Shown here one piece after another: positions 15,141 to 45,160 of a stretch of DNA of 64,000 bases. Origin of the DNA: Lachnospiraceae bacterium (lineage in GTDB: Bacteria > Bacillota > Clostridia > Lachnospirales > Lachnospiraceae); contig JAAWEL010000042.1 in assembly GCA_022794255.1 (NCBI GenBank), forward strand, positions 26,107 to 90,106. Reading direction: 5' to 3'. Position 1 is the stretch's first letter; every line of letters begins with the position of its first letter. Both the position numbers and the translations under genes were made by a program. The notes beneath the pieces are model-generated. The model did not search any database and was not told where the DNA came from. It saw nothing but the letters and a program-made list of their open reading frames with translations.

Positions 15141-15153
15141 GGGCATGGGAGAG

Positions 15154-24791: not shown

Positions 24792-24801
24792 GCATTGCCA
24801 C

Positions 24802-24832
24802 ACTCCGGCGGGGTCCATTGGGCCCCCGGAGT
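24802..24832 (+). terminator. Intercistronic GC-rich hairpin, possible partial terminator
   Basis: ACTCCGG (24802-24808) pairs with CCGGAGT (24826-24832), with further G/C pairing inside, in the 80-base gap between the binding-protein and permease genes. The short T-stretch suggests partial termination or 3'-end protection, which would raise binding-protein dose over permeases. Confidence 0.55.
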
Positions 24833-24871
24833 TTATGAGGCTGCACGGCAGCCGGAAAGGGTAGGTAAAAG

Positions 24872-25765: not shown

Positions 25766-25777
25766 GAGGAGGAGACT

Positions 25778-26608
25778 ATGAAAGCAAAGAACGCTACAAA
25801 GATATTTTTGATTATCATTGCCTGTATTGTCGCATATATATTTCTCCTGCCATTGATGTTCATGGTTTTTACCAGCTTTAAGGGGATTGCAGAGTCAGTT
25901 ACCTCCACAACGCTCCTTCCAAAGAACTGGACCATGGAAAACTACCGGGAGCTGTTTATGAACACTTCCACCTCGCCGGTGATGCGATGGCTGGGAAATA
26001 CGGCGATTGTCACCTGTGCAGGCACAGCTCTTAGGATTGTTACCAGTGTTCTGGCGGCCTATGCTTTGGCAAGGCTTCCAGTGCCTGGAAAGAAGTTTAT
26101 TCTGGTGGCGCTTATCTGGGCCATGGCCATACCGGAGATCGTGACATTTTTTCCGCTGTTTTACATGTTTAAGCAGGTGGGAGGGCTCAATACCTTTTGG
26201 CCGCTGATTCTGCCATCCGGGTCCGGTGTGATGTGCATTTATCTGATTTATAACTTTCTTCTGGCCTTTCCAAAGGAATTAGAGGAAGCTGGTTTTGTGG
26301 AGGGGGCCAATGTATTCCAGGTGCTGTGGCACATTGTAGTTCCATCTGTGAAGCCGGTGATTGTGACCCAGGCATTTATCACTTTTCTGGGTCTGTACAA
26401 CAGCTATCTGTGGCCGTCCCTGGTAATCAGCAGGAATGAGAACAGAACGATTACACTGGGGATAGCAGCTCTGGTGTTAGGAGAGAATTATACCAATCCG
26501 GGGCTGATGATGGCTTCGACCGTAGTTTCGGTGCTTCCGGTCATGCTGATCTTCATGTTTGCAAATAAATACATCGTCAGGGGCTTTACACAATCAGGAA
26601 TCAAATAG
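25778..26608 (+). CDS. Sugar ABC transporter permease (MalG/UgpE type)
   Basis: A 276-residue permease with six hydrophobic segments; the EAA loop is EEAGFVEGANVFQVLWHIVV. The C-terminus IVRGFTQSGIK is typical of MalG-type subunits. It starts 12 bases after the partner permease with a GGAGGAGG site, and the glycosidase gene follows 11 bases after its stop. Confidence 0.92.
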   Translation: MKAKNATKIFLIIIACIVAYIFLLPLMFMVFTSFKGIAESVTSTTLLPKNWTMENYRELFMNTSTSPVMRWLGNTAIVTCAGTALRIVTSVLAAYALARLPVPGKKFILVALIWAMAIPEIVTFFPLFYMFKQVGGLNTFWPLILPSGSGVMCIYLIYNFLLAFPKELEEAGFVEGANVFQVLWHIVVPSVKPVIVTQAFITFLGLYNSYLWPSLVISRNENRTITLGIAALVLGENYTNPGLMMASTVVSVLPVMLIFMFANKYIVRGFTQSGIK

Positions 26609-26619
26609 GAGGTCGGAAG

Positions 26620-28383
26620 ATGAGAGAGGAATATCCACGTCCGGAATTTGTCAGAGAAGAATGGATGAACTTAAATGGACGCTGGTTCTTTGCTTACGGC
26701 AGTGAGCAAACGGAGATTCAGGTTCCGTTTGTATGCCAGAGCAGGCTCAGCGGAATTGGGAAGAAGATTAGGGAAGACCATGTGGTCTATGAGAGAAGCT
26801 TTAAGGTTCCAAAGGAATGGAAGGACAGAGAGATCCTGCTGCATTTTGGCGCAGTGGATTACAAATGCAGCGTCTTTATCAATGAGAGATGCGTAGGTCA
26901 TCACACAGGCGGCCAGACATCCTTTCATTTTGACATTACCCGGTATCTAAGCTGGGAGCAGGAGGTGATCCGGGTAGAGGTGGAGGATCCCCTGAATGAT
27001 GAGAGCATTCCGAGAGGAAAGCAGTTCTGGGAGGAGGAGTCCAAATTTATCTGGTATACTCCAAGTACCGGGATCTGGCAAAGTGTATGGCTGGAGCCTG
27101 TATCCAAAACCAGTCTTTGCTGGGTGCATTTCACACCAGATATTGATGAGGGCACCGTAAAGATTGATTATCAGCTTTCTGAGTCCACGGTCCTTCCGTG
27201 CCGGGTTCACGTGAAGGTTCGGTTGGGGGAACAGGAGGTTTTCCATGGAAATATGCTGTGCAATACGGTGAGAAACAGCCTGACTGTGGATGTTTTCCGA
27301 AAAAAGGCTATGGAGGGTTCTTTCCACTTTACGGGGAATTACTGGAGTCCGGAGAATCCTATATTGTATGATGTGCTGATCCAGACCGATGACGGGATCA
27401 CCGGGGAGCCGGCAGATTTGGTGAAGGCTTATTTTGGGATGAGAAAGATTCATGTGGAAAACGGAAAGCTGTATCTGAACAATCAGCTCTACTATCAGAA
27501 GCTGCTTTTGGATCAGGGATATTGGGAAGACGGGCTGGTGACAGCTCCTACAGACCAGGATTACGTGGATGATATCTTAAAGTCCAAGGCAATGGGCTTT
27601 AACGGTTGCCGAAAGCATGAGAAGGTGGAGGATCCCAGGTTTTTATACTGGGCAGACAAGCTGGGATTTTTGGTGTGGGAAGCCATGGCCAGCTTCTGGT
27701 CCTATACGCCTCAGGCAGCAGAGGCCTTTACAAGAGAGTGGATGGATGTGATTCACAGGGACTACAATCATCCCAGCATCATTGTGTGGGGAATGCTCAA
27801 TGAGAGCTGGGGAGTGCCAAGAATCTACAGCAATAAACAACAACAGGATTTTTCCCGGGCTCTTTACTATCTGGCCAAAGGTTTAGACACCACCCGGCTG
27901 GTCATTTCCAATGATGGCTGGGAGATGACAGAGACGGATATCTGCGCTTTTCACAGCTATAAGCACGGGGAAAAGGAAGAATATGGGCAGCATGAGGTGT
28001 TCAGGGATTCCCTTAAGAAGGTGGAGACGCTTCATCTGGTGATGGAAAAGCTTCTCTTTGCCAAGGGATCGGTTTACAAGGGCCAGCCGGTCGTGCTGAC
28101 TGAGTGCGGCGGGATTGCTGTGGAAAATAGCCAGCCGGAAAGCGGTCAGAATCCAGATGGAGACGGGAAGCAGGACTGGGGATATACTTTTGCTTCAGAA
28201 ACGGATTTTCTGGATGAGTATGGCCGGATAATCGATGCCATCTATGAGTCGGAACTTTTGGGAGGATTTTGCTATACCCAGCTGACGGATGTGGAACAGG
28301 AGACCAATGGGCTTCTTACCTGCGGACATCAGTATAAGTTTGATCCGGAGGAGATCCGGAAAATAAATGAGAGGAAAAAATAG
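26620..28383 (+). CDS. Glycoside hydrolase family 2 (beta-galactosidase/glucuronidase-like)
   Basis: A 587-residue cytoplasmic GH2 enzyme with no signal peptide. It has an N-terminal jelly-roll sugar-binding domain (about 10-165), an immunoglobulin-like domain (about 170-280) and a TIM barrel (about 285-585). The acid/base is Glu in WGMLNESWG and the nucleophile Glu in VLTECGGIA. It is shorter than LacZ and lacks its C-terminal domains, like the compact GH2 members. It most likely hydrolyses the glycoside imported by the three upstream gene products. I cannot state the sugar. The gene ends about 80 bases before a terminator. Confidence 0.9.
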   Translation: MREEYPRPEFVREEWMNLNGRWFFAYGSEQTEIQVPFVCQSRLSGIGKKIREDHVVYERSFKVPKEWKDREILLHFGAVDYKCSVFINERCVGHHTGGQTSFHFDITRYLSWEQEVIRVEVEDPLNDESIPRGKQFWEEESKFIWYTPSTGIWQSVWLEPVSKTSLCWVHFTPDIDEGTVKIDYQLSESTVLPCRVHVKVRLGEQEVFHGNMLCNTVRNSLTVDVFRKKAMEGSFHFTGNYWSPENPILYDVLIQTDDGITGEPADLVKAYFGMRKIHVENGKLYLNNQLYYQKLLLDQGYWEDGLVTAPTDQDYVDDILKSKAMGFNGCRKHEKVEDPRFLYWADKLGFLVWEAMASFWSYTPQAAEAFTREWMDVIHRDYNHPSIIVWGMLNESWGVPRIYSNKQQQDFSRALYYLAKGLDTTRLVISNDGWEMTETDICAFHSYKHGEKEEYGQHEVFRDSLKKVETLHLVMEKLLFAKGSVYKGQPVVLTECGGIAVENSQPESGQNPDGDGKQDWGYTFASETDFLDEYGRIIDAIYESELLGGFCYTQLTDVEQETNGLLTCGHQYKFDPEEIRKINERKK

Positions 28384-28510: not shown

Positions 28511-28635
28511 AATGTATCTCAAAAGCAGTGTCCCGGAAACAGAGAAAGGAAATGTTTTGGGAGAATTTGCCTAAGGGGATTGATTAACAGAAGGGTATGT
28601 GTTAGTATTGACTAATTATAAGCGTGGAGGTGGAA

Positions 28636-29316
28636 ATGTTTTTTACATCTTTGACCGAGTGGTCGCCGGGAAATGTGATGATCAGGATTTTGGCCTCTTT
28701 GGTGTTAGGAGCTTTGATTGGGATTGACCGGGGGGCAAAGAGACGGGGCGGAGGAGCCAGGACGGATGCGGCTGTTTGTCTGGGAGCTACCATGGTGATG
28801 CTGACAGCCCAGTATATGTATCTTATGTTTCCGGAAAAGACGAATATTGCCCGGATGCCGGCTCAGGTGGTCAGCGGGGTCGGCTTTTTGGGAGCAGGTT
28901 CTATTCTGGTGTCCAGAAACCAGGTGAAAGGACTGACTTCAGCGGCAGGGGTGTGGCTCTGTGCCTGTGTGGGGCTGGCGGTGGGGATTGGGTTTGTGGA
29001 TGGAGCTGTGATGATCACATTGGTGCTTTTGGCAGGACTTCATATTCTCCCTTTTTTTGAGCACAGGATTTATCAGTACTCCCGGTATGTGACACTGTTT
29101 GTGGAAGCGGAGGATGGCAGGACTGCGGCGTTTCTGATCCACAAGCTGAAAAAGGACGGATGTACCATTGATATGTATAATGTGGAGCGGATGGGAACAG
29201 GGGGACAGTCCTTTACCATTTGGGCTACGGTTTGTATCGACAAGAATCTGAAAAAAGAGGAATATTTAGAAAGCCTGTCCCATCTTCCGGGGATTGTATC
29301 TGTGGATGAGCTGTAA
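28636..29316 (+). CDS. MgtC/SapB-family membrane protein
   Basis: A 226-residue protein with four to five hydrophobic segments in the first about 140 residues. The conserved MgtC features are LGALIGIDRGAKRRGGGARTDAAV and GVGFLGAGSILVSRNQVKGL. A C-terminal ACT-like domain follows (about 150-226). Family members support growth in low magnesium or acid and can modulate the F-type ATPase; the role here is inferred. The ATG at 28636 has a GGAGGTGG site. A GTG at 28624 in frame is less likely because it would sit on top of that site. It is transcribed towards the histidine kinase gene on the other strand with only 13 bases between stops. Confidence 0.88.
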   Translation: MFFTSLTEWSPGNVMIRILASLVLGALIGIDRGAKRRGGGARTDAAVCLGATMVMLTAQYMYLMFPEKTNIARMPAQVVSGVGFLGAGSILVSRNQVKGLTSAAGVWLCACVGLAVGIGFVDGAVMITLVLLAGLHILPFFEHRIYQYSRYVTLFVEAEDGRTAAFLIHKLKKDGCTIDMYNVERMGTGGQSFTIWATVCIDKNLKKEEYLESLSHLPGIVSVDEL

Positions 29317-29329
29317 AATACCAAAATTA

Positions 29330-30613
29330 TTAGAGAGGCAGGGTCAGGGAAAAGACGCTGCCTCCTTTAGGATTGTCAGAGAGAGTCAGGGCTGCATGGT
29401 GAAGAATGGTAAGCTCTCTGGCAATGCTAAGACCTAAGCCAAAGTGGGATTTGTCGCTGCGGGAAGGGTCGGCCCGGTAAAATCGGTCAAAAATAAAGGG
29501 TTTTAAGTTATCCGGGATGCCGCAGCCTTCATCTTTGACCTGAAGGGTAAGGGCTTTGGAGGTGAAAAAGGCACAGATATGGATGGATTTGCCTGCGGGC
29601 GTGTAGGACAGGGCATTGTCTGTCAGAATGGTGAGTATCTGGCGGATGCGCTGGGGGTCAACAGACAGGACTGGCAGGGGAGAGGAAGGCAGCTGTAAAT
29701 GGAGGGAAATCTGTTTTTGACGGCAGAGAGGGAGGAAGGATTCGTAGGTCTCAATGAGAAGGGTATCCATGTCTGCCTCCTCCAAATGGAGCTGCCAGGT
29801 TTTAGCATCTGCCGCTGCAAGCAGGAGAAGGTCATCGATCAGGCTAGACAGGCGGGCAAATTCCGAGTCCATGGAAGCCATCAGAACTTCTTTTTCCTGG
29901 GGAGCGGAAAGAATGACAGAGATGCCAGAGCGCAAAACTGCCAGGGGAGACCGCAGCTCATGGGAGGCGGCAGCGATAAATTCTGCCTGTTTTCTTTGAT
30001 TTTCTTCTACTGGAATCAGAGACCAGCCTACAAAGTGCCAGCTGACAAAAGCCAGGCATAAAATTCCTGTCAAATCAACAACTCCAAGACCCCAAATAAT
30101 CTTTTTGAGCGATTTTAGAATGGAGGGACGGTAATATATGACACACAGACTCTGGGGGCCATTTTTTTTTGCCAGAACAAGGATCCTTGCATAATACTGA
30201 TCTTTGCTTTGGCCGGTTATATGCATCAGAGAGCTGGTGGCAGATGAGGAGGAAATGGGGGATACATTGGTGAAAACTCCCTGTTTTTCTGCCAGCTTTT
30301 TGGCGGTGTCGATTAAGATTTTCCGGTCTGTGGGGGGAGTCCAGGAGCCGGAAAAGAAAAAGGGGATTCCGTTTTCTTCAATATGGATGAGGAGCTGGTT
30401 TCTGGCCTCTGTCCGGGATAAATAACTGTGGGAGATCACGGTATCGGACTGAAGACGGAAGCAGAGAGAATTCCAGAGCTGATAAAAATCATCCAGCTGT
30501 GCCTGGCGGGTTTGTCTCATTTGGAACAGGAATAGAACCGTCAGAGCCAGGGTCAGGATGACGCTGGCGGTTATGGTGTAAAGCCACGTCAGGCGGCAGC
30601 GCAGATGCTTCAT
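29330..30613 (-). CDS. Sensor histidine kinase (HisKA type)
   Basis: A 427-residue membrane kinase with TM1 (about 10-31), an extracellular sensor of about 130 residues, and TM2 (about 168-195). The phosphorylated His lies in AASHELRSPLAVL (about residue 220). Then come the N-box LTDNALSYTP, G1 DEGCGIPD and G2 FGLGLSIA. It lies downstream of its response regulator (gap 37 bases). A HAMP domain is short or absent. With the divergent lipoprotein/permease/adaptor operon at 31483 it probably forms a sensing unit for whatever that operon handles. Confidence 0.92.
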   Translation of the reverse strand: MKHLRCRLTWLYTITASVILTLALTVLFLFQMRQTRQAQLDDFYQLWNSLCFRLQSDTVISHSYLSRTEARNQLLIHIEENGIPFFFSGSWTPPTDRKILIDTAKKLAEKQGVFTNVSPISSSSATSSLMHITGQSKDQYYARILVLAKKNGPQSLCVIYYRPSILKSLKKIIWGLGVVDLTGILCLAFVSWHFVGWSLIPVEENQRKQAEFIAAASHELRSPLAVLRSGISVILSAPQEKEVLMASMDSEFARLSSLIDDLLLLAAADAKTWQLHLEEADMDTLLIETYESFLPLCRQKQISLHLQLPSSPLPVLSVDPQRIRQILTILTDNALSYTPAGKSIHICAFFTSKALTLQVKDEGCGIPDNLKPFIFDRFYRADPSRSDKSHFGLGLSIARELTILHHAALTLSDNPKGGSVFSLTLPL

Positions 30614-30650
30614 GGGGAAATCCTTTCTTGGGAGATATTGATGAAACTTG

Positions 30651-31325
30651 TCAGTCTGTGTCCAGTCGGTAGCCAGTCCCGTGGATGGTGGTCAGACGGA
30701 CGGGGGCGCCAATGGATTTTAAGCGCCTTCTTAAAAAGTAGATATAATTGTCCAGATTTCCCTCCTCCACCTCGGAATCAGAGCCCCACACGTAGGAGAG
30801 GATCCGGCTTCTGGGAAGAATCTGACCGGGATTGCGCATGAAAAATTCCAGGGCGGCCGATTCCTTTTTTGATAAGGTGAGGGCCATGTCCTGATATTTC
30901 AGCAAATGCTGCTGAGGGTCTAAAGAAAGCCCGGACAGGGTAAGAGCAGGGGAGAGCTGCAGGTTTTTTGACCTTCTGGCAATGGCTCTCAGCCTGGCCA
31001 TCAGCTCTTCCACTGCAAAGGGCTTCACAATATAGTCATCAGCGCCTGCATCCAGCCCATCAATCCGGTCTCCCAGGCGGTTAAGGGCAGTGGCCAGGAT
31101 CACAGGGGTGGTGTTATGCTGGCGGCGCAGGGACGCTAACAGAGTCAGTCCATCCATCTCCGGAAGCATCCGGTCTAAAATAATGGCATCATAGGAGTGG
31201 CTTTTGGCAAGAAAAAGTCCGTCTGTGCCTGTGTGACAGCTCTCGGTAATGTAGCCGGACTGATTTAAAGCCAGGACGATATTGCGGCATAGGTCTTTGT
31301 CATCTTCGATCAATAATATTTTCAT
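30651..31325 (-). CDS. OmpR/PhoB-family response regulator
   Basis: A 224-residue regulator. The receiver domain (1-115) has the acidic pair in LLIEDDKDL, the phospho-Asp in IILDRMLPEMDG and Lys in YIVKPF. The C-terminal winged helix (about 130-220) ends with YFLRRRLKSIGAP and TIHGTGYRLD. An AAGGAG site precedes the ATG. It heads a two-gene operon with the kinase at 30613, and is divergent from the 31483 operon across a region holding a TCTCTAAAA inverted repeat. Confidence 0.93.
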   Translation of the reverse strand: MKILLIEDDKDLCRNIVLALNQSGYITESCHTGTDGLFLAKSHSYDAIILDRMLPEMDGLTLLASLRRQHNTTPVILATALNRLGDRIDGLDAGADDYIVKPFAVEELMARLRAIARRSKNLQLSPALTLSGLSLDPQQHLLKYQDMALTLSKKESAALEFFMRNPGQILPRSRILSYVWGSDSEVEEGNLDNYIYFLRRRLKSIGAPVRLTTIHGTGYRLDTD

Positions 31326-31359
31326 GATTTTTCTCCTTATCTATAGTGTATCACACAAT

Positions 31360-31410
31360 TCTCTAAAAAATCTTTAAAAATTTCCTTGATTTTTCCAGTT
31401 CTTTTAGAGA
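31360..31410. promoter_or_regulatory. Candidate binding site of the adjacent response regulator
   Basis: TCTCTAAAA (31360-31368) and TTTTAGAGA (31402-31410) form a perfect inverted repeat. A second copy, TCTTTAAAAA (from 31371), is exactly 11 bases after the first, the spacing that OmpR-type dimers prefer. TATGAT at 31420-31425 could be the -10 of the rightward operon, so the right half would overlap the -35. Confidence 0.55.
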
Positions 31411-31482
31411 CTTAAAGGGTATGATGAAAATATAGCTTTACGGATAAAACCAATGAATTTAGATCAGGAAGGAAGTCGAGAA

Positions 31483-33861
31483 ATGGGATTACTGAAAAAT
31501 TTGACAAATGGCTGTGTGCCTGATGCAAAAGAAAGGTGCAAAGAAAGTGTGAAGATGGAGAAGGTGAAAGGGCGAAGAGCAGGCAGACTGGCGGTGCTTT
31601 GTCTGTTTGTGGGGATTGGGGCAGGGATTTTGGGTGGCTGCAAGGGAGGAGGACAAAGGGAGGTTCTGTCTCCGGCGTTACTGCCCGGACAGGAATTACC
31701 TGCAAGCCCGAACCAGGATTTTGGGGATGTGCCGGAAGCTGTGGGAAGGTACATAGAGACAGCGGTAGAACTCCCTGAGATTGGGGCAAATGATCGGTTT
31801 GTGTCCTTTTTTAAAGGAAAGGATAATGAGATGGAGCTGTATATAGCCTCTGGGGATGATTTGGGCCGTCCTGCGGGTGCTAGGCGGTTTGTGTGGGAGA
31901 ATAATGGGTGGCGACAGGATGAGGGATGGTGGGATCAGGTGAAGCCCGGAGATATTTCAGTGGAGATCCGAAGGGTGTTTTACGGCTTAGACGGCAAATA
32001 TTATTTCAGCGCCATGGGCACTGAGGAATATATCTATCACCTGTATCAGATTAATGAGGAGGGAGAATCGGAGGAGCTTTTGAAAGAATTATTCCTTCCC
32101 GGGGCAGGGAAGAATTATGGTATGATTCCTCCAAAAGCAGAGGTTAGCAGGGATGGAAAGATTCTCATTTATGGGATGGATGAAGCCACCTTGTATGAGC
32201 CAGATGGAAAAAGACTGTTTTCTATGGAAAAGTCCTGGGGCGGTACCTCTGAGAACAGCATCGGATATATGACGGAAGAAGAATTTGTCACAATGACTGA
32301 GGAGGGGGTAATCCGATACCGGCTTAGTGACGGACAACCGATCCAGGTGATTTCCTTTGATGGGGGGAATCGTCTGCTGTCTGAGGAGCATTGCATATTG
32401 TTCGGTGATGGGGATGGCGGTATCTATGTGGCCGGCGAGAAGGGGCTGGCTCATGTGGGGGCAGAGGGGAGTTTGTGGGAGCTTTTGATGGATGGGAGTC
32501 TTAACGCCATGGGGATGCAAAACATTTATTGCCAGGAGTTTTTACAGGGGAATGAGAAGGATTACTATGGGGTCTATGTGTCAGATGGGGGAGTGGGAAT
32601 TGAGATGTATCACTATACCTATGACCCGGATATGGCGGCGTCTCCTCCTGTGACCCTGACGGTGTATGGACTGAAGGATAATTCCACAGTCCGTCAGGCA
32701 GCAGCTCTTTTTCAGAAATCCCACTCAGATGTGAGAGTGGAGGTGTTAAGCAGTGTGGAGGAGAGAGGGACCCCATCAGAGGAGATGATCCGGGCCCTCA
32801 ACACAGAGCTTTTAAACGGAAAAGGAGCAGATGTGCTGATTTTGGACGGTTTGCCATGGAAATCCTATGAGGAGAAAGGAATTTTGGCAGATATGAGACA
32901 GATCTTTACAGACATTCAGAAAGAGGAACCTATGATGGAGCAGGTGGTATCGGACTTTACCAGGGAGGATGGAGGGATTTATCAAATGCCGGCAAGAATC
33001 GGCATACCAGTTGTGATCGGGAATGAACTGGCGAGACAGGCCTTTGACAACATAGAGACTATGGCTGGCTATAAGGGAGAGAAGCCCTTGATGGCAGCAG
33101 ATACCTATGAAAATCTTTTATGTCTTATGGCAAATCTTCAGTATCAACAGTTGTTTGACAGCAGGGAGGGGGATATCACGGAGGATTTGCTGGTGAGATA
33201 TCTGGAGACAGCCAAGGGGATTGGGGAAGAAAACGGATCCAGAACAATGTTCACAGAAGAGGAGATGGAACGGCTGTGGGTCAGCAACAACAAGATGCCC
33301 TATGGGATCCGCGGTACCAGCATAAATTATGATTATGGGAGCTGTGCCTGCGGGGTAGAAAATATGCTTGGTCTTTATGACCTTATAATTCCTAAGGCGG
33401 TTTTAAAGAAACATCCCGAAGCATCCATGGAAAGCATTCACAGGATCTATTTTCCAAGAATATTGATCGGGGTGAATCAGGGAAGTTCTAAACCAGAGCT
33501 TGCCCGGGAATTTGTCCGCTGTCTGTTTTCTGTGGAGGTACAAAAGGAAGAGTTTTTTGACGGCTTTCCGGTAAATTTAAGGGCCCAGGAGGAGAACTGC
33601 ATTTCCACCGGCAAAAATGACATTTCCATTGGAAGCGGTATAGGAGATTATCATATTTCCGGGGAGTGGCCAAACACACAGGAGAGAAGGGAACTTTATG
33701 AAATCATTCGCAGTGTGTCGGTCCCGGTGATGATGGATGAGACGATTATGAACATGATCGTGGATGGAGCCAGGGATTATTTTGACGGAAAGGTAAGCGC
33801 CCGGGAGGCGGCAGCTTTTATCTGCCGGAAAATCACTCTCTACAGGGCAGAGCAGGGATGA
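31483..33861 (+). CDS. Very large extracellular solute-binding-protein-like lipoprotein
   Basis: About 792 residues, nearly twice the usual size of a sugar-binding protein. The signal peptide ends in a lipobox (GILGGC, Cys at base 31639). Residues about 60-390 are a strand-rich region with repeated short blades (propeller-like). Then a family-1 solute-binding domain begins (VTLTVYGLKDNSTVRQAAAL), with the usual inter-lobe pattern to the C-terminus. The ATG at 31483 has AGGAAGG ten bases upstream. ATG 31555 would give a more normal signal peptide, and 31453 has no ribosome site. Two permeases follow, the first overlapping by four bases. The extra N-terminal half is unusual and may bind another surface partner. 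Confidence 0.82.
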   Translation: MGLLKNLTNGCVPDAKERCKESVKMEKVKGRRAGRLAVLCLFVGIGAGILGGCKGGGQREVLSPALLPGQELPASPNQDFGDVPEAVGRYIETAVELPEIGANDRFVSFFKGKDNEMELYIASGDDLGRPAGARRFVWENNGWRQDEGWWDQVKPGDISVEIRRVFYGLDGKYYFSAMGTEEYIYHLYQINEEGESEELLKELFLPGAGKNYGMIPPKAEVSRDGKILIYGMDEATLYEPDGKRLFSMEKSWGGTSENSIGYMTEEEFVTMTEEGVIRYRLSDGQPIQVISFDGGNRLLSEEHCILFGDGDGGIYVAGEKGLAHVGAEGSLWELLMDGSLNAMGMQNIYCQEFLQGNEKDYYGVYVSDGGVGIEMYHYTYDPDMAASPPVTLTVYGLKDNSTVRQAAALFQKSHSDVRVEVLSSVEERGTPSEEMIRALNTELLNGKGADVLILDGLPWKSYEEKGILADMRQIFTDIQKEEPMMEQVVSDFTREDGGIYQMPARIGIPVVIGNELARQAFDNIETMAGYKGEKPLMAADTYENLLCLMANLQYQQLFDSREGDITEDLLVRYLETAKGIGEENGSRTMFTEEEMERLWVSNNKMPYGIRGTSINYDYGSCACGVENMLGLYDLIIPKAVLKKHPEASMESIHRIYFPRILIGVNQGSSKPELAREFVRCLFSVEVQKEEFFDGFPVNLRAQEENCISTGKNDISIGSGIGDYHISGEWPNTQERRELYEIIRSVSVPVMMDETIMNMIVDGARDYFDGKVSAREAAAFICRKITLYRAEQG

Positions 33862-34754
33862 GGATGGACAGGGATTGTCAAAATATCCGTTGCCGAAAAG
33901 CCAGACATCCGGCCAGAATGGCTTATTTGTTTTTGACGCCCAGCTTTTTGGGGGTGACAGTGTTTTTTGTCCTGCCTTTTCTTGATGTGGTGCGCCGTTC
34001 CTTTTCCGATGCCATGGGCCGTTTCTTTGTGGGATTGGAAAACTATGAGAGTGTGTGGAACAACCAGGCATTTCGCTTAGCAGGAGGAAACACTATCTGC
34101 TTTCTGGCAGCGGCCCTCCCCTTGTTGTTTACAGGTTCATTGGTTCTTTCTCTTATGGTATATGAGACGAAGAACTGCAAAGGGCTTTTTAAGACCAGTC
34201 TGATTTTGCCTATGGCGGTACCTGCTGCCGCCATGGTGCTGGTGTGGAAGCTTCTTCTCTGCCCAGACGGGGCTGTCAATCAGCTGCTCATGGCACTTAC
34301 CGGGCAGATCTGGGACAGGGATTGGGTAAATGGCAGAACAGCTTTTCCAATGTTGGTTGCAACTTACCTGTGGAAAAATACGGGTTATGATATGCTTTTG
34401 TGGCTGGCTGGTTTGGGGGCGATTCCGGACAGTCTTTATGATGCGGCAAAGATGGATGGGGCAGGATTTTTTGACAGACTTCGGTATATCACTCTGCCGA
34501 ATCTTAAAAATACCATGGCTCTTGTGTTGATTCTTTCCGGGGTGAATGTTTTCCGGGTTTATCGGGAGGCATACCTTCTAACAGGGACTTACCCGGATCC
34601 TTCTATCTATATGATCCCTCATCTGTTTGGCCACTGGTTTCTGACGCTGGATATTCAGAAGATGAGTACAGGAGCTATGTTTTTGGTGATGTTTCTGGCG
34701 GCGGTCTGGGGAGTGGCCTTTGTGGGGAGAGGGAAAGGAAGGAGGACAGAGTGA
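33858..34754 (+). CDS. Sugar-type ABC transporter permease (MalF/UgpA-like)
   Basis: A 298-residue membrane protein with six hydrophobic segments and the EAA loop YDAAKMDGAGFFDRLRYITL. The N-terminus is basic (RCRKARHPARM). Its ATG overlaps the stop of the lipoprotein gene (ATGA). It is the first of two permeases in an operon without an ATPase. Confidence 0.9.
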   Translation: MRMDRDCQNIRCRKARHPARMAYLFLTPSFLGVTVFFVLPFLDVVRRSFSDAMGRFFVGLENYESVWNNQAFRLAGGNTICFLAAALPLLFTGSLVLSLMVYETKNCKGLFKTSLILPMAVPAAAMVLVWKLLLCPDGAVNQLLMALTGQIWDRDWVNGRTAFPMLVATYLWKNTGYDMLLWLAGLGAIPDSLYDAAKMDGAGFFDRLRYITLPNLKNTMALVLILSGVNVFRVYREAYLLTGTYPDPSIYMIPHLFGHWFLTLDIQKMSTGAMFLVMFLAAVWGVAFVGRGKGRRTE

Positions 34755-34808
34755 AATACAGGAAAGAAATTCAGGAAGGGAGAATGGATTACAGGGAGGG
34801 ATAGGAAC

Positions 34809-35660
34809 ATGAGAAAAATAGTTCAGACACGGATACAATGGATCATTCTTTTTGGGGCGTGTTTGCTGATCTGGCTGCCGCTTTTGCTTATGGCGGCAGC
34901 TGTTTTTATGCCTGAGGATGAGCTTTTGTGGCGCTACCTTTCTCCTTTGGGGATCGGAAGGGCTCCGGTTCGTGCGGCTTTGATTCCTTCTTATCCGTCC
35001 TGGGAGGCGCTAATGGAACTCCTTTTTCACTCTCCTGGCTTTTTTGTCATGTTCTGGAATTCCTGTATTCAGGTGATTCCCATGCTTTTGGGACAACTCT
35101 TGGTAGGAGCACCGGCGGCATGGGCTTTTGCACAGTTTTCCTTTCCGGGGAGACGTCTTATTTTTTGCCTGTATGTTTTGTTAATTGTCCTTCCTTTTCA
35201 GGTGACACAGGTATCCAATTATCTGGTATTGGATAAGCTGGGGCTTCTGGATTCCCACTGGGCTATGATTTTACCTGGAATCTGGTCTGCCTTTCCGGTT
35301 TTTATTATGACACGTTCTTTTCAGGCAATTCCAAAATCTCTTTTGGAGGCAGCTTATCTGGATGGGGCCGGAAAGGTGGAGACTTTTTTTCTGGTGGGGA
35401 TTCCGGTTGGTTATCCGGGGATTGTAACGGCTTTGCTTTTGGGGTTTATGGATGGGTGGAATGCTCTGGAGCAGCCAATGGCATATCTGCGGGACATAAG
35501 CCTTTGGCCTCTGGCTTTGTATCTGCCGGATATTGTACAGGACAAAGCGGCTGTGGCTTTTGCGGCGGGAGCTGTGATGATGGTGCCGCCGGTGCTTTTG
35601 TATCTGAATGGGCAGGGAGAGTTAGAGGAAGGAATGGGAGGATATGAGGGGAAGGAATGA
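34809..35660 (+). CDS. Sugar-type ABC transporter permease (MalG/UgpE-like)
   Basis: A 283-residue permease with about six hydrophobic segments and EAA loop EAAYLDGAGKVETFFLVGIP. Compared with MalG proteins the first extracellular loop is enlarged. The C-terminal tail is acidic and Gly-rich and overlaps the next gene by 17 bases, so translation of the efflux-adaptor-like protein is coupled to the permease. Confidence 0.88.
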   Translation: MRKIVQTRIQWIILFGACLLIWLPLLLMAAAVFMPEDELLWRYLSPLGIGRAPVRAALIPSYPSWEALMELLFHSPGFFVMFWNSCIQVIPMLLGQLLVGAPAAWAFAQFSFPGRRLIFCLYVLLIVLPFQVTQVSNYLVLDKLGLLDSHWAMILPGIWSAFPVFIMTRSFQAIPKSLLEAAYLDGAGKVETFFLVGIPVGYPGIVTALLLGFMDGWNALEQPMAYLRDISLWPLALYLPDIVQDKAAVAFAAGAVMMVPPVLLYLNGQGELEEGMGGYEGKE

Positions 35661-37401
35661 AGTGGTTTTGATGAGCAGAGAAAAGGGGAAAGGGCTGGGG
35701 GGCGTTTACAGGAGATGCCTTGTGGGATTTTTTGGGATTATGGTGGGGTGTACTTTGATATCCCGGGTTTATGACAGCATTGTGGTTCCTAAAGTGGTTT
35801 GTGAGAGGATGAGGGAAAAGGCCGTGGAAACAGTGATTGAGGGAACCGGGTCTGTGAGGGAGACGGATCGGGCTTTTTGCCAGGTGGTGCCCGGACTGCG
35901 GATTTTGTCCGTGAGAGTGGAGCCAGGAAGCGAGATAAAAGAAGGACAGGTGCTGTTTATCTATGATCTGAAAGGGTTAGAGGAAAGGCTGGAGGACTTG
36001 GAGGGGGAGCTTCGGCGGCTGAGGCTGGATCTGGAAGAGGAGAGGATTTCTGGAGAGATTTATCCGCAGGTTTCGGAGACAGAGCTGGCGGAATGGGAGC
36101 TCTTTATGACACAGAGGATGTTGGAGGAGGGGCAGCAGGAGTATGAGGAGAAGCTGGCAGAGCATGAAAAAGAGCTGGAAAGACTGAAAGATGAATATGA
36201 GAGAAGGAAAAATATGACCAGGGAGGAGCTGTGGCTTTTGCAGGATCAGGAGGAGGAAGCTGCCAGACAAGAGCTTTCCTCGGCCAGAAATTCGAGAGAT
36301 TCTTCCCTCAGGGAGGCAAGGAGGAGGGTGGAGGATTTGGAGGAGAAACTGACCGATATGAGAGAGGGGGAGTGGGAGGAAAAGGAGCTTGCCAGAGCTG
36401 AGAGGGAGCTTTCCAGGGCAAGAGAGGATCTGGAGGCTCTGGAGGAGGAGTGGGAGGATCGGATTGATGATGTGGAATCTCGTATGGATTTGATAGATGA
36501 TAGAAATGCGCGGATCCTTTCCGGGGAAACCACTTCCCAGGCTGCATTGCTGGAAGCCTATGAGGAATCTGTGAGACAGAAGAAAGAAGCGTGGAGGGAG
36601 GAGGAAAAGGGATTAAAGGAATTAAAAAGGGATGTTGAGAAGGCCCGGCGGGATCTGGAAATCGCTGCAAGAAAAGATGATGTTACATGTCTGGAGAATG
36701 AGCGGAGGCAGAGATTGTCTGCGGTGGCAAGGCAGAAGCTGGAGCTGGATATCCAGGAGAAGGAGAGGCAGGCAGAAAAGATTGCCGGACTGATTTTTGA
36801 TCAGGGGCAGGTTTTGTCTGAAATGGAGGGCACGGTTGTGGATCAGGAGCTTGTGGCGGGAAAAACAAGTACCGGCGAGGAGAGGCTTTCGGTGGCATCC
36901 GGGAATTTTTGTTTTGAAGGGGAGTTTGAAAAGGAGGAACAGAAGCTGGCTGTGGGCGATTGTCTTACTGTTCAGATTCCAGGAAGGAACCGGACAACGG
37001 AGGCGGTGGTCCAAGAGATCCGCCTGCTGGGGGAAAAGGGGGTTTTTCGCGGGGAGATTTCTGACGGGCATCTGCCTCTGGGAAGCGTGACGGGGTATAC
37101 GTGCAGAAAACAGTCAGAGATTTATCAGCAGGTTATCCCTGTGCAGGCTCTGCGCAAGGATACCAAGGGGTATTACTGTCTGGTGGCCCGGATAAGGAAT
37201 GGTATTTTGGGGGAGGAATTTCGGGCAGAGCGGATTGATGTGCGGGTAATGTATGAGGGCAGCAAAGAGGTGGCTGTGGAGGGAGGACTGCAGACAAAAG
37301 ATGATATTATTGTCCGCAGCAATCAGGTGATAGAAGGCGGGGACCGGGTGCGGCTGACAGGAGAGTGGGAGAAGGAGGAAGGAAGCTTTGGAGGAAGATA
37401 G
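35644..37401 (+). CDS. HlyD/MFP-like membrane adaptor with a long coiled coil
   Basis: A 585-residue protein. An N-terminal membrane anchor (about 22-42) is followed by a lipoyl-like half (VEPGSEIKEGQVLFIYD, about 90-107), and then about 270 residues of Glu/Lys/Arg/Leu heptads forming a coiled-coil hairpin. The second lipoyl half and beta-barrel lie at about 395-570. That order is the membrane-fusion-protein (HlyD/AcrA) plan. Such adaptors normally belong to efflux pumps, yet here the gene overlaps a sugar-type permease gene. The low-complexity coil has a purine-rich coding strand. ATG 35644 follows GGAGG closely; ATG 35671 is the alternative start. Confidence 0.83.
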   Translation: MRGRNEVVLMSREKGKGLGGVYRRCLVGFFGIMVGCTLISRVYDSIVVPKVVCERMREKAVETVIEGTGSVRETDRAFCQVVPGLRILSVRVEPGSEIKEGQVLFIYDLKGLEERLEDLEGELRRLRLDLEEERISGEIYPQVSETELAEWELFMTQRMLEEGQQEYEEKLAEHEKELERLKDEYERRKNMTREELWLLQDQEEEAARQELSSARNSRDSSLREARRRVEDLEEKLTDMREGEWEEKELARAERELSRAREDLEALEEEWEDRIDDVESRMDLIDDRNARILSGETTSQAALLEAYEESVRQKKEAWREEEKGLKELKRDVEKARRDLEIAARKDDVTCLENERRQRLSAVARQKLELDIQEKERQAEKIAGLIFDQGQVLSEMEGTVVDQELVAGKTSTGEERLSVASGNFCFEGEFEKEEQKLAVGDCLTVQIPGRNRTTEAVVQEIRLLGEKGVFRGEISDGHLPLGSVTGYTCRKQSEIYQQVIPVQALRKDTKGYYCLVARIRNGILGEEFRAERIDVRVMYEGSKEVAVEGGLQTKDDIIVRSNQVIEGGDRVRLTGEWEKEEGSFGGR

Positions 37402-37402
37402 G

Positions 37403-38059
37403 ATGACAGGGATTTTGGATGAAAAAAATAGAATATGGGGGAAGCTGGGGGTGCGGGGAAGGGGACGGATGGTTTCCTGGATGATGTGGCTGGCATTTTT
37501 GATGGGAGCGGGAGGAATGACAGTTTCTGGGCTGCGGCTTACCTTCTTTTATACCCCATATCGGGTGGAGGTGGATTGTACCGGAGCAGGGTTGGATGTA
37601 GAAACCGTAAAAAGGTGGGAGAACAAAGAAAGCCTGAGGGATCTGGGGATACTGACCATGGCAGGATGGAGTGTGGGAAGCCCGGAGGAGGTTCTTTCTC
37701 TTGGGACAAAAAGGAGAGAAAGAGCACAGATTGTTAAGGTTTGGGGAAATATGGAGCTGGTATTTCCGGCAAGGATACTCTCCGGCACCTATGGGGTGGT
37801 GGGAAAGGAGGAGGGCTGTGTCTTAAGCAAAGGACTGGCGGAGGCTTTGTTTGGCAGTGTAGATGTGGCGGGGGAGCGGATTTGTTTCCAGGAGAAGGGG
37901 GAGGGGAGAAGGGAGCTTATTGTGGAGGGAGTTATTGACAAGGAGGGGGAGTATTTGCTGACCTTTGTGGAGAAGGGAAAGGTGGATTTTTTTGCTGCAA
38001 GGTTTCAATCCCGTTTTCAGGCAAGAGAGAAGCTTTGGGAGCTTTTGTCAGAGACCTGA
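37403..38059 (+). CDS. Stand-alone MacB-like extracellular (PCD) domain protein with one membrane anchor
   Basis: A 218-residue protein with a single hydrophobic segment at about 27-47 and an extracellular domain. Its core (GCVLSKGLAEALFGSVDVAG followed by a beta-rich ELIVEGVID segment) resembles the periplasmic core domain of MacB/FtsX-type ABC permeases. The four-helix FtsX membrane domain and the ATPase are missing. ATG 37403 has GGAGG eight bases upstream; a TTG at 37388 is possible but worse. It starts two bases after the adaptor gene's stop, so both are made together. It could be a remnant or a purposeful scaffold linking adaptor and transporter. Recognition of the fold is by eye only. 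Confidence 0.68.
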   Translation: MTGILDEKNRIWGKLGVRGRGRMVSWMMWLAFLMGAGGMTVSGLRLTFFYTPYRVEVDCTGAGLDVETVKRWENKESLRDLGILTMAGWSVGSPEEVLSLGTKRRERAQIVKVWGNMELVFPARILSGTYGVVGKEEGCVLSKGLAEALFGSVDVAGERICFQEKGEGRRELIVEGVIDKEGEYLLTFVEKGKVDFFAARFQSRFQAREKLWELLSET

Positions 38060-38168
38060 ATTTGCTGTTGCATTTTGGGGGGAAGTGGAGTAGAATCGGA
38101 TGGGCCGGGCCGCGAAAAATTACGCCTGTGTGGGCTTTTTTGCTGGTGAAGCTTTGAGAGGAGATTCT

Positions 38169-38534
38169 ATGGATATTTATAAAAGGATAGGGATGGTGTG
38201 CGGAAAAATCCCGGAAGGCAAGGTGGCCACCTACGGACAGATTGCCCTTCTGTGTGGGAAACCGAAAAATTCCCGCCAGGTGGGGTTTGCCTTAAACCGC
38301 GGCCTGTCAGGGGAAAAGACAAACGCTCACCGGGTGGTAAACAGAAGGGGCATTTTAAGCGGAGCCGCCAATTTTGAGACTTTTGACATGCAAAGGCTTT
38401 TGCTGGAGCAGGAGGGGATCCAGGTGACATGGACCCCAAAGGGGTGGCAGGTGGAGCTGAAACGCTTTGGGTGGAAAAGCACCATGGAGGATGCCGTCAT
38501 GTTCCGGAAGCTGTTTGAGAAAGAAGGAATTTAG
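38169..38534 (+). CDS. Alkyltransferase-like protein (MGMT/Ada-like domain without the acceptor cysteine)
   Basis: A 121-residue protein matching the DNA-binding half of O6-alkylguanine-DNA alkyltransferases: winged-helix segment GKVATYGQIALLCGKPKNSRQVG and the active-site loop. Where alkyltransferases have PCHRV, this has NAHRV, so the methyl-accepting cysteine is absent. Known Atl proteins of this type bind alkylated guanine and direct it to nucleotide excision repair; that role is inferred. ATG 38169 has a GAGAGGAG site. It ends at the convergent end of a histidine kinase gene (overlap four bases). Confidence 0.86.
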   Translation: MDIYKRIGMVCGKIPEGKVATYGQIALLCGKPKNSRQVGFALNRGLSGEKTNAHRVVNRRGILSGAANFETFDMQRLLLEQEGIQVTWTPKGWQVELKRFGWKSTMEDAVMFRKLFEKEGI

Positions 38535-39988
38535 TGTGCAGGAGGGGGACAGAAGGGGCAGGAAAACCAGAAATTTATCTTTCCCTTCTGACAATTTACA
38601 CCGTAATCCATTTCATGGGCATCCAGAATGGTTTTGACTATGGACAGGCCGATGCCGGTTCCTAACCGGCGTCCGCTTTGATGCTGGCTTCGGTGATACC
38701 GCTCCCATATCAGCTGGTGTTCAGCTTCCGGAATGGGGGTTCCGGGGTTTATAACAGATACACAGACCTGGTTTTTGTCTGTCTTTGCCAGTATGGTGAT
38801 GCTCTCCTTGTCCTTAGTGTGATTGATGGCATTGTAGAGAAGATTGCGGATAACCTGGCTGATTTTTAAGGCATCCAGATACAGCATAAGTTCTTTATCC
38901 GGGCAAATGAGTTCAAGGGAAATCTGGTATGGAGAGGCGCTGTGGCGGCAAAGTATAACCTCTGATTCCAAGATTTCATACAAATTGTACCAGTCCTTTT
39001 TCAGTTGAGTGTAGCCTGCCTGAAGTTGGGAATAATCCAGGATATCGCTGACCATCTCTCCCATGCGGCGGGCTTCGCTTATGATCAGATTTAAGCCCTC
39101 CTCCCGCTGGACATCGTCCTTCCAGGTGATGTCTCGAAGCATCTCTGCGTATCCTCCGATCACAGATAAAGGGGAGCGCAGCTCATGGGATACATTGGCA
39201 ATCACTTCTTTGCGGAGTACATCCACCTGCTGTAAGGATTGTCCTAACTGTTCCACAGAATCGGAAAGCTGCCCCAGTTCGTCTTTGCGGTTAAGGCCGG
39301 GGCGGGCACAAAAGTCATTGCGGGTGAGGCGGTCTACGGCCTCCTTGATCTGAAAGATTGGGCGGGTGAACTGACGGGACAGCAAAAAAGCCAGCACAGA
39401 GGCAATGACAGTGAGAAGAACTGTCAAAAGGATCAGCTGTCTCCGGTTAAAATCCAGGGTGGTTTTTAACAGCAGTATATTGTGGAGGATCACAAAGCAG
39501 GGCTCCTCCTCATAGGTGACAGGAATGCCCAGCTCAAATCCAAAGATCTTATCCCGGTGTTTATCCACCACCCGGTAGGGATGACCCTGCAAAAGCTCCA
39601 GAAACTCAGGCCTTCTTTTGATTCCATTCCAGATCATTTCCTCTTCTCGCTGATTTTTGATATCCACCTTATGGCCGGCAGAATACATCTCTAACAGCTT
39701 TCCCTGATGATTCATCAAGATCAGTTCCCCGCCTGCCATGCGGCTCAGACCAGAGAGCATACGTTCATCCTCAGCCAGATCCTGGGTGGTCAGATTTTTC
39801 ATGATAGGCTGAAGCCGTTTTTCTGTCTCCTCCAAAGCCATTTCGGTATAGCTATGTTCAAACAAAAGGATCTGTGCCACCCACATAAATCCGATTCCAA
39901 AAAAAACCAGTACCATCATAATGGACCAGAGACGAACCACAATCCGGCTTCCTGGATTGAAAATCTTATATTTCTTCTGTGTATTCAA
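38531..39988 (-). CDS. Sensor histidine kinase (HAMP/HisKA type)
   Basis: A 485-residue kinase with TM1 (about 20-42), an extracellular domain of about 130 residues, TM2 (about 183-203), and HAMP (about 204-256). HisKA has His in ANVSHELRSPLSVIGGYAEM, and the ATPase domain has NLLYNAINHT and GTGIGLSIVK. Its start is a TTG at 39988 that overlaps the regulator gene's end by 23 bases. The start is less certain than the rest because no ATG precedes TM1. It pairs with the regulator at 40640 and lies divergent from the RND efflux operon, which it probably controls. Confidence 0.9.
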   Translation of the reverse strand: MNTQKKYKIFNPGSRIVVRLWSIMMVLVFFGIGFMWVAQILLFEHSYTEMALEETEKRLQPIMKNLTTQDLAEDERMLSGLSRMAGGELILMNHQGKLLEMYSAGHKVDIKNQREEEMIWNGIKRRPEFLELLQGHPYRVVDKHRDKIFGFELGIPVTYEEEPCFVILHNILLLKTTLDFNRRQLILLTVLLTVIASVLAFLLSRQFTRPIFQIKEAVDRLTRNDFCARPGLNRKDELGQLSDSVEQLGQSLQQVDVLRKEVIANVSHELRSPLSVIGGYAEMLRDITWKDDVQREEGLNLIISEARRMGEMVSDILDYSQLQAGYTQLKKDWYNLYEILESEVILCRHSASPYQISLELICPDKELMLYLDALKISQVIRNLLYNAINHTKDKESITILAKTDKNQVCVSVINPGTPIPEAEHQLIWERYHRSQHQSGRRLGTGIGLSIVKTILDAHEMDYGVNCQKGKINFWFSCPFCPPPAH

Positions 39989-40640
39989 GCTTGTAGCCCA
40001 CCCCCCAGACAGTCTGAATCAATTTTCTGTATTCGCCCAGATGCTCCCGCAAGGATTTTATGTGAGTGTCCACGGTTCGCACATCTCCGTAATAGTTATA
40101 GCCCCACACAGTCTGTAAAAGCTTTTCCCGGCTGAGAACGATATTTTCATTCTGGGACAGCTTCAGCAGAAGATCAAATTCCTTGGGAGGAAGGTTTAGT
40201 TTTTGATTCTGGATAGTGACGGTGCGGGAGGAGGGAAGGATCGATAAGTCTCCAAAGGTAATGGAATCGGTCTGGATTTTGCCAGTGCGCCGCAGCACAG
40301 CCCGGATCCGGGCCATCAGCTCTTTGGGACTAAAGGGTTTTGGAACATAGTCGTCAGCGCCTAAGTCAAAGCCGGTCAGCTTATCGTACTCCTCATCTCT
40401 TGCGGTCAGCATGATAACCGGTACACGGCTGTCCTGGCGGATGGCTTCCAGTACCTGAAAACCGTCCATTCCAGGCATCATCACATCCAGGACGATCAGA
40501 TCAAAATCCTTTTTTTGAAAAATTTCCAGGGCTGATTCTCCGTCCTCAGCTTCATCGCAGGCAAAGCCTTCCAGCTCTCCGTAGGTCCTTACCAGTTTTC
40601 GTAAATGGGCATCATCATCGATGATCAGTAAATTGGGCAT
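39966..40640 (-). CDS. OmpR/PhoB-family response regulator, likely regulator of the RND operon
   Basis: A 224-residue regulator. The receiver domain has IIDDDAHLR, the phospho-Asp in VLDVMMPGMDG, and Lys in YVPKPF. The winged-helix domain ends in THIKSLREHLGEYRKLI and TVWGVGYKLEY. It is the first gene of the kinase/regulator pair. Directly upstream, in the gap shared with the divergent RND adaptor gene, are three TCACA repeats at 11-base spacing, a fitting binding site for this class of protein. Confidence 0.93.
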   Translation of the reverse strand: MPNLLIIDDDAHLRKLVRTYGELEGFACDEAEDGESALEIFQKKDFDLIVLDVMMPGMDGFQVLEAIRQDSRVPVIMLTARDEEYDKLTGFDLGADDYVPKPFSPKELMARIRAVLRRTGKIQTDSITFGDLSILPSSRTVTIQNQKLNLPPKEFDLLLKLSQNENIVLSREKLLQTVWGYNYYGDVRTVDTHIKSLREHLGEYRKLIQTVWGVGYKLEYTEEI

Positions 40641-40728
40641 AGGGACTCCTCACTGTTTGTTATTTTCCTTAAATATAACATGTTTTGGGGGCCAGGGGAA
40701 TGGGAGAACACAAATTCTGCGGATTTTC

Positions 40729-40755
40729 TCACAGTTCGTTCACAAAAAGCTCACA
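40729..40755. promoter_or_regulatory. Three 11-bp-phased TCACA direct repeats, candidate response-regulator box
   Basis: TCACA occurs at 40729-40733, 40740-40744 and 40751-40755, spaced exactly 11 bases apart, one helical turn. PhoB/OmpR-type regulators bind tandem half-sites with this period. The array lies between the divergent regulator gene and the RND adaptor gene, about 105 bases before the adaptor ATG. Confidence 0.65.
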
Positions 40756-40858
40756 AATTTTCAATATTCTGGGAGGAAAGAACAGGGATTGAAGGGAAAG
40801 TCTGTCTAAATTGGGATGAGAAGAAAAAAGAGCGCCGGGAAGATATAAGGAGGATTTA

Positions 40859-42091
40859 ATGACCATGAGGAAAAAAGTGATTGTTGCAGGAATTTGTGGA
40901 GCAGCCTTGGCGGCAGCTGTGGGAGGATATTTTTTGCTGGAAGGGAACCGGCAGGCTAAAGGAGGGATGAAAGGGGCAGGCGGAGCCCCGGGGGGAATGA
41001 CCCAGGAGGCATCGGTGACGGTTGTGAAGGCGTCTGTGCCTTCAAAGGGGGATTTGAGCCTGTCCACCGGGCTTACGGGGACTGTGGAGGCAGCAGATGT
41101 GGTCTATGTCTACGCAAAGACCACTGGGGATGTGACAGCCGTTCATGTGAAGGCCGGGGATGTGGTGACAGCAGGGCAGGTGCTCTGTGAGATTGACACA
41201 GAGCAGGTGGATTCTGCGCGCAATTCCATGGAGGCGGCTCAGGTGAGTCTGGCCCAGGCCCAAAGCAATTTGGACCGGATGCAGCTTCTTTACAGCAGCG
41301 GGGATTTGTCGGAACAGGAGTATGAGCAGTACAGTAATTCGGTGAAATCCTCCCGGCTTCAGTATGAGTCCGCGAAGCTGGCCTATGAACGGCAGGTGGA
41401 ATACAGCAGGATCACAGCGCCGATTGGAGGAAGGATTGAGAGCTGTGATGTGGAGATCTATGACCGGGTGAACCAGTCTGGGCAGCTTTGTGTGATCTCC
41501 GGGGAAGGAGAGAGCCGCATCACCTTTTTCGTGACGCAGAGAATGATGAAAAATATCCGGGAGGGGGATGTGGTGGAGGTGGAAAAAAACGGAGAGACAT
41601 ACCAGGGCCGCATCAGTGAGATCAGCAGTATGGTGGATGAGTCCAGCGGGCTTTTTAAGGTGAAGGCAGAACTGAATCATACAGAGGAGATCCCTATAGG
41701 AAGCACAGTGAAGCTGAATCTGGTGACAGAGCGGGCTGAAAATGCCATGCTGGTCCCGGTGGATGCCATCTATTACAGTGGTGGAGACGGGTATGTCTAT
41801 TTGTATCAGGACGGCACGGCAAAGATGACACCAGTGGAGGTGGGACTCTATGATTCTGAGTATGCCCAGATTCTGTCCGGGTTAAATGAGACGGATATGG
41901 TGGTCAGTACCTGGAGCTCCAACCTGTACGAGGGAGCGAAGATCCGCTTAAAAGGCGAGGAGGGACAAAAGAACGTCTCAGGCGGAGGAGAATTGCGAGA
42001 CAGTGGAGAAAGAGGAGATCAGGGAGAAAAGCCGGAAGGCGGAGTAAAAAGTGATGGTCCGGGGGCCGGGAAAAGACGGCCGGAAGCATAA
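40859..42091 (+). CDS. RND efflux adaptor subunit (MFP, AcrA/MdtA-like)
   Basis: A 410-residue adaptor. The N-terminal membrane anchor is at about 5-27 with no lipobox. A Gly-rich linker is followed by the lipoyl domain (HVKAGDVVTAGQVLCEID), a short coiled-coil hairpin (about 120-180), beta-barrel and membrane-proximal domains, and a 45-residue Gly/Glu/Lys-rich disordered tail from about 365. It starts after an AGGAGG site and is 18 bases before the pump gene. It should link the RND pump to the TolC-like proteins encoded downstream. Confidence 0.93.
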   Translation: MTMRKKVIVAGICGAALAAAVGGYFLLEGNRQAKGGMKGAGGAPGGMTQEASVTVVKASVPSKGDLSLSTGLTGTVEAADVVYVYAKTTGDVTAVHVKAGDVVTAGQVLCEIDTEQVDSARNSMEAAQVSLAQAQSNLDRMQLLYSSGDLSEQEYEQYSNSVKSSRLQYESAKLAYERQVEYSRITAPIGGRIESCDVEIYDRVNQSGQLCVISGEGESRITFFVTQRMMKNIREGDVVEVEKNGETYQGRISEISSMVDESSGLFKVKAELNHTEEIPIGSTVKLNLVTERAENAMLVPVDAIYYSGGDGYVYLYQDGTAKMTPVEVGLYDSEYAQILSGLNETDMVVSTWSSNLYEGAKIRLKGEEGQKNVSGGGELRDSGERGDQGEKPEGGVKSDGPGAGKRRPEA

Positions 42092-42109
42092 TCGGAGGAG
42101 GCAGAAGAA

Positions 42110-45112: not shown

Positions 45113-45131
45113 CGGCCCACAAAGGTTTTAC

Positions 45132-45160
45132 AAAATCTTTAGAATATTGAAAGATTTTTC
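45132..45160 (+). terminator. A+T-rich hairpin after the pump gene, weak terminator candidate
   Basis: AAAATCTTT (45132-45140) pairs with AAAGATTTT (45150-45158), followed by TTC. With almost no G/C the stem is weak. It separates the pump gene from the TolC-like genes. Confidence 0.45.

Follow-up and report, generated by a model that had tools for sequence, protein, structure and literature searches.

Does an operon that carries both sugar-importer and efflux-pump parts encode one machine, or are its genes merely neighbors? The question is raised by five genes at positions 31483-38059 (the observation region) of a 64,000-nucleotide stretch of Lachnospiraceae DNA (contig JAAWEL010000042.1), which as a whole we call the window: a binding lipoprotein, two MalF/MalG-type permeases, a coiled-coil adaptor and a MacB-like ectodomain, all taken from the list of open reading frames (ORFs). 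The explanation that we favor, and consider moderately probable, is a single composite machine: a CUT1 importer powered in trans by a UgpC/MsmX-type ATPase, with a MacA-like adaptor docked via the MacB-like ectodomain. What we infer in this reading is the assembly, the transport direction, the ATPase partner, the substrate and the regulation. The original prediction on this DNA knew of no described system with such a mix, and a full-text literature search likewise found no description of one.

Importer and efflux-type parts of the operon

The operon features, all on the forward strand, are as follows.

31483..33861, +, binding lipoprotein, here the solute-binding protein (SBP): 792 residues, or 768 from ATG 31555; lipobox Cys53
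31732..32652, +, N-terminal all-beta, propeller-like half of the SBP, residues 84-390 (predicted structure)
32653..33858, +, solute-binding half of the SBP, residues 391-792; oligosaccharide-binding-protein fold
33858..34754, +, PermA: MalF/UgpA-type permease by Pfam and NCBIfam, EAA loop retained
34809..35660, +, PermB: MalG/UgpE-type permease by Pfam and NCBIfam, EAA loop retained
35644..37401, +, adaptor: one transmembrane segment (TM), lipoyl and barrel parts, coiled-coil-like stretch at about residues 109-385
37403..38059, +, MacB-like ectodomain: one N-terminal TM; 218 residues from ATG, 223 from TTG 37388

All five ORFs are present with profile or fold support, and their tight coupling is as first described: SBP and PermA overlap by 4 bp and PermB and the adaptor by 17 bp, PermA and PermB are 54 bp apart, and 1 bp separates the adaptor from the better-placed MacB-like start, ATG 37403. 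The SBP start is uncertain between ATG 31483 and ATG 31555.

The first three genes have the features of a CUT1 importer. At 26.6 bits against Pfam SBP_bac_1 (cut-off 26), the SBP qualifies as a sugar-type solute-binding lipoprotein. PermA (38.4 bits) and PermB (38.1 bits) both exceed the BPD_transp_1 cut-off of 26.4 and lie nearest to the UgpA/GlcT/MalF and UgpE/GlcU/MalG families of NCBIfam, respectively, all below the curated cut-offs; an EAA-like motif is present in 32/32 PermA and 31/31 PermB sequences. These are the two permeases expected of the CUT1 class, and the earlier call of two sugar-type permeases is borne out. The predicted SBP structure (mean pLDDT 83.4, pTM 0.80) consists of an all-beta N-terminal half (residues ~84-390) and a classic binding fold, and the closest of the 50 Foldseek matches listed include CbpC (7x0o, E 8.7e-15) and other oligosaccharide-binding proteins. 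The model thus likely has the fold of that group, with a sugar as candidate ligand only. Since all 50 listed matches are binding proteins or fusions thereof, a propeller could not be assigned by fold match, and we retain "propeller-like", a term based on strand layout and on weak Pfam matches in one or two relatives each. The extra N-terminal half of the original prediction therefore stands as an all-beta region and not as a propeller by fold. Across 28 SBP sequences, mean pairwise identity is 0.26 at positions 84-384, 0.48 at 391-500 and 0.27 at 501-640. At one related locus (L135, 7699-9054), PermA and PermB are separated by a protein of its own gene, 452 residues long, that matches NHL and propeller families weakly; at another, L023, the SBP and the kinase are each broken into several ORFs, perhaps by sequencing errors.

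The last two genes belong to efflux-type families. On its own, the window adaptor gives a weak Pfam lipoyl match (17.3 bits, below cut-off) and lies nearest to the resistance-nodulation-division (RND) and HlyD adaptors of NCBIfam, again below curated cut-offs. Its family profile matches solved adaptors with a best E of 1.9e-13 (MacA 5nik, E 4.9e-8), as expected of a periplasmic-type adaptor. Hydropathy predicts one TM. Residues 109-385, a run of 277 that includes a single Pro and 8 Gly, read as coiled coil; folded back once, this stretch would give about 138 residues per arm and therefore a reach of ~20 nm. In PMC5768738, Spr0693 is described as a hexameric tube, modelled as ~154 Å high, whose docking partner is a MacB-like base; by analogy, the longer coiled coil of the window adaptor would reach further.

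The window MacB-like protein has a weak MacB_PCD match as well (18.8 bits, below the Pfam cut-off). MacB_PCD is found at E up to 1 in 23/26 aligned family members (best E 6.9e-12), and the predicted structure of a longer relative resembles those of MacB and YknZ, which identifies a MacB-like ectodomain. With its one TM, the window protein does not have the four-helix MacB/FtsX membrane part, and no FtsX Pfam match was found in the 26 members, though longer relatives carry further helices. Indeed, most relatives have a longer protein with additional membrane helices, so that the "stand-alone" domain described earlier is a property of the short-form clade, 8 loci including the window, in which only the ectodomain remains. 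A quick tree places this as one change, in which the clade appears to have lost the C-terminal membrane half. A search of the window's own genome for a displaced half, run with the last 144 residues of the L018 protein and without a positive control, gave no match at E up to 1. Because the MacB-like base is reduced to its ectodomain, this clade can hardly have an ATP-driven pump of its own. In the L018 model, helices TM2 and TM3 are joined by 7 residues, but the TM2-to-TM3 stretch is 60-70 residues in 19 long members; set beside the MacB coupling helix treated in PMC5985334, this short link is only a hint. The MacB-like proteins of L176 (2627-3733) and L177 (10382-11404), in which two TM segments were detected, perhaps represent a second, independent reduction.

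Conservation of the gene set

A scan of genome contigs with PermA returned 46 loci. The 31 at 44-68% PermA identity (L002-L032) retain PermB in 31/31, the adaptor in 30/31, the SBP in 29/31 and the MacB-like gene in 27/31, and the four without the last (L012, L020, L024, L029) all reach a contig edge; the response regulator and histidine kinase that face the operon are found at >150 bits in 26/31 and 23/31. The 15 loci at 23-28% identity (L033-L047) have neither adaptor nor MacB-like gene. Within the family, PermA is matched at E <= 1e-60 in 81 of 299 genomes, by 98 sequences in total, and an adaptor match lies within 6 kb on the same strand for at least 82 of the 98, two of these not downstream, in a count that omits fragments and the weakest rows. 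At E <= 1e-55, matches occur in 45/391 genomes of the class and 13/398 of the phylum.

For a wider comparison, 60 stretches were drawn from the family matches (including 13 of the 16 PermA matches without an adaptor match), 20 from the class and 11 from the phylum. The 80 family and class stretches, together with L002-L032 and the window and less three duplicates (L092-L094), make a set of 109 loci, of which 97, the window included, have enough sequence (at least 4.5 kb downstream of PermA). Among these 97, the adaptor is at least 400 residues long in 83, shorter in 9 and absent in 5. A full adaptor and a MacB-like gene stand together beside PermA in 80/97 loci, that is, in all but three of the 83 with a full adaptor: in L146 and L147 the adaptor is followed by no such gene, and L170 gave no match. 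Two of the nine short-adaptor loci (L160, L168) have a MacB-like match, and in L136 the next gene gives a weak MacB_PCD match, so the MacB-like profile can miss some members. In none of the 97 does a MacB-like match occur unaccompanied by an adaptor. Adaptors stay with the importer genes even where no MacB-like gene follows (L146, L147) or was found (L133-L135, with short adaptors of 231-240 residues lacking the coiled coil), which argues that the adaptor serves the importer. The unity of the set is thus well supported by comparative sequence data, and the check on conserved gene order that the original prediction proposed came out in favor of unity: the set is retained beyond the family. The conserved association rules out accidental neighbors; correlated divergence is weaker support for the same conclusion.

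These comparisons also bear on a second explanation, in which the adaptor and the MacB-like protein form a MacAB-like pump that expels something and the importer genes are merely co-regulated. The two folds speak for it, as does L145, where an ATPase-adaptor-MacB-like cassette adjoins the hybrid. Against it, no efflux-type (MacB/LolD-type) ATPase was found inside the cassette in 109 + 11 loci with a UgpC-based search profile, which detects ABC ATPases of other kinds as well, for example the 233-residue one of L145. The absence of FtsX matches, the lack of the C-terminal membrane half in the window's clade and the intermixing of importer and efflux-type genes in at least three orders also count against a pump, which we regard as improbable. 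A separate complete efflux cassette, which would have made the operon's unity accidental, is not the rule, L145 being the one locus with a candidate. That cassette (12228-15835) may picture the origin of the adaptor pair.

ATPase supply and proposed mechanism

The ORFs and a profile scan revealed no ATPase gene in the window operon, as first noted. Some relatives differ: an ABC ATPase is encoded inside the cassette or no more than 350 bp from it in 7/109 loci (L016, L027, L031, L104, L105, L155, L159) and in the cassette of 6/11 phylum stretches (L172-L177), 13/120 loci in total. The importer family UgpC is the best NCBIfam match of all 13, and 11 pass its 432-bit cut-off; the ATPases of L031 (416 bits) and L155 (387 bits, first 245 positions) fall below. 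The suggested check for an ATPase joining the operon elsewhere therefore came out positive, with an importer-type enzyme. L155 has an adaptor match of 122 residues only and no MacB-like match. Three near cases are outside this count: L145, whose separate cassette lies downstream; L118, where an ATPase gene and one for a multi-TM protein are inserted between SBP and PermA; and L129, with an ATPase of the importer type ~1.4 kb upstream of SBP.

Elsewhere in the window's genome, on other contigs, two UgpC-type ATPases exceed the cut-off, and among 15 near-complete family genomes picked, 15/15 have one at E <= 1e-100, over cut-off in 14. The operon resembles CUT1 importers that rely on a common ATPase, MsmX in Bacillus subtilis and MsmK in Streptococcus pneumoniae, in its sugar-type SBP, its MalF/MalG-type permeases with EAA loops, and its lack of an ATPase gene with UgpC-type ATPases elsewhere in the genome. 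To our knowledge, known importers of that kind have no adaptor or MacB-like partner; here, in contrast, both recur, and 74/83 nearest SBPs are at least 650 residues long, a comparison of length only. Operons that lack an ATPase gene and are served by an orphan MsmX or MsmK are described in PMC7658222, which makes the missing gene ordinary for a CUT1 importer. An importer-type energy supply is well supported by these assignments, with a UgpC-type enzyme as the presumed partner of the window operon.

The adaptor and MacB-like ectodomain resemble those of two Gram-positive MacAB-like pumps, YknWXYZ of Bacillus and Spr0693-0694-0695 of Streptococcus pneumoniae, which are among the best structural matches. 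YknWXYZ and Spr0693-0694-0695 have their own efflux-type ATPase and are not known to have an SBP or MalF/MalG permeases; here it is the reverse.

In the composite machine that we favor, the lipoprotein would capture its ligand outside and pass it to PermA/PermB, powered by a UgpC/MsmX-type ATPase encoded elsewhere. The adaptor coiled coil would extend into the wall, where it would keep the binding protein in place or guide it, with the MacB-like part as the adaptor's base, as MacB is for MacA; the kinase and regulator probably act on the operon through a promoter dyad. The wall is assumed to be thick (Gram-positive) from the names of relatives. A broader and doubtful proposal is a widespread, new class of wall-spanning ABC importers, in which a MacA-like tube on a MacB-like base is turned inward and feeds a MalFG-type gate across the thick wall.

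Adaptors usually serve export. This is the one point in favor of another explanation, that PermA/PermB and the adaptor export a surface polymer or peptide. We consider it very improbable: the permeases, the binding protein and the cassette ATPases are all in importer families, and no polymer-synthesis family recurs among the flank families listed. Of the three functions first suggested, an importer docking on an efflux-type tube fits best, the polymer exporter is disfavored and an envelope sensor remains as a rival. Export and sensing are the known settings of adaptors and MacB-like proteins; across many families of the phylum, both are linked here to an importer whose ATPases are of the importer type. 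If the parts do cooperate, an assembly of efflux type is at work in uptake or keeps the binding protein steady in a thick wall, and the annotation of adaptor and MacB-like genes in such bacteria would change. Relatives with the long MacB-like protein, with its ectodomain only, with a short adaptor or with none form a natural reduction series for dissecting the roles of the parts.

Regulation, the sensor explanation and the flanks

The operon is faced by a divergent two-component pair, as the original prediction stated.

29330..30613, -, histidine kinase: HisKA + HATPase_c; hydropathy TMs at ~6-24 and ~172-190
30651..31325, -, OmpR-type response regulator by Pfam profiles, divergent from the operon
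31360..31410, no strand assigned, operator-like dyad TCTCTAAA-N35-TTTAGAGA, 51 bp, in the shared promoter; conserved in near loci
31420..31425, +, -10-like TATGAT of the operon promoter, in 6/7 aligned near sequences, window included

The left arm of the dyad recurs with one change after 11 bp, and 9 bp separate the dyad end from the TATGAT box. We grouped the 109 loci by PermA profile score (group I, >=340 bits, 59 loci; II, 260-340, 40; III, <260, 10). The dyad, with at most one mismatch and a free spacer, is found in the promoter region of 26 group I loci, or 26/45 of those with the regulator, and 16 of the 26 have exactly 51 bp. Elsewhere in 1.0 Mb it has no match, and a control with reversed sequences gave 4. 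In the window's own genome its 19-bp left half has one copy without mismatch; allowing up to 3 mismatches gives 6 matches, against 9 for the control, and the exact copy alone is therefore distinctive. The kinase and regulator that face the operon likely control it via this dyad, a predicted regulator-binding site.

This pairing underlies the main rival, in which an importer-like complex with its adaptor reports ligand or wall state to the facing kinase in a Bce-like manner, transport being secondary or absent. Consistent with it, group I loci with enough sequence have the regulator in 43/54 and both proteins in 39/54, the divergence of regulator and kinase tracks that of the five operon proteins, the dyad's left half has its single exact copy here, and no conserved catabolic family appears among the flank families listed. 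As in Bce-type modules, a transporter stands beside an OmpR-type pair. Unlike in those modules, the kinase has an outside domain, with ~147 residues between its two hydropathy TMs, in which it differs from BceS, and importer parts are present; no Bce-type ATPase or FtsX permease matched among the 9 window proteins scanned (28624-38531). Moreover, 31 of the 35 sufficiently long group II loci combine an adaptor and a MacB-like gene with no match to this regulator, the EAA loops are retained, and 13 cassettes include an importer ATPase. We therefore judge a sensor role unlikely.

Several observations weigh against the composite importer. The dyad is confined to 26/59 group I loci and found in 0/40 of group II; the second SBP lobe is poorly conserved; and most loci, like the window, have no cassette ATPase, a shared one being assumed. 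Some wider-family importers have no adaptor (L132, L139, L140, L142, L143, L178-L182), so the adaptor is not required for import as such; in the phylum stretches L178-L182 (PermA 191-200 bits) the MacB-like gene is absent too. Flanking genes are not conserved: a first flank set (83 proteins of 99 candidates) gave no recurring family among 25/96 listed (commonest MatE, in 6), and a second (104 of 152) none among 25/135 (commonest Radical_SAM, in 5). With neither conserved flanks nor a recurring sugar-degrading family among those listed, the substrate could be a non-sugar.

Two further gene groups lie in the window. Next to the operon, at 38531-47682, an AcrB-type pump (642.6 bits) and an RND-type adaptor are encoded together with a further two-component pair and two genes whose outer-membrane-efflux (OEP) domains exceed the cut-off (44.3 and 29.4 vs 22), in a genome whose relatives look Gram-positive. 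At 23385-28383, a lipoprotein-like gene (no Pfam match at E 1e-5) and two PermA/PermB-like permeases, with no ATPase, stand beside a glycoside hydrolase family 2 enzyme.

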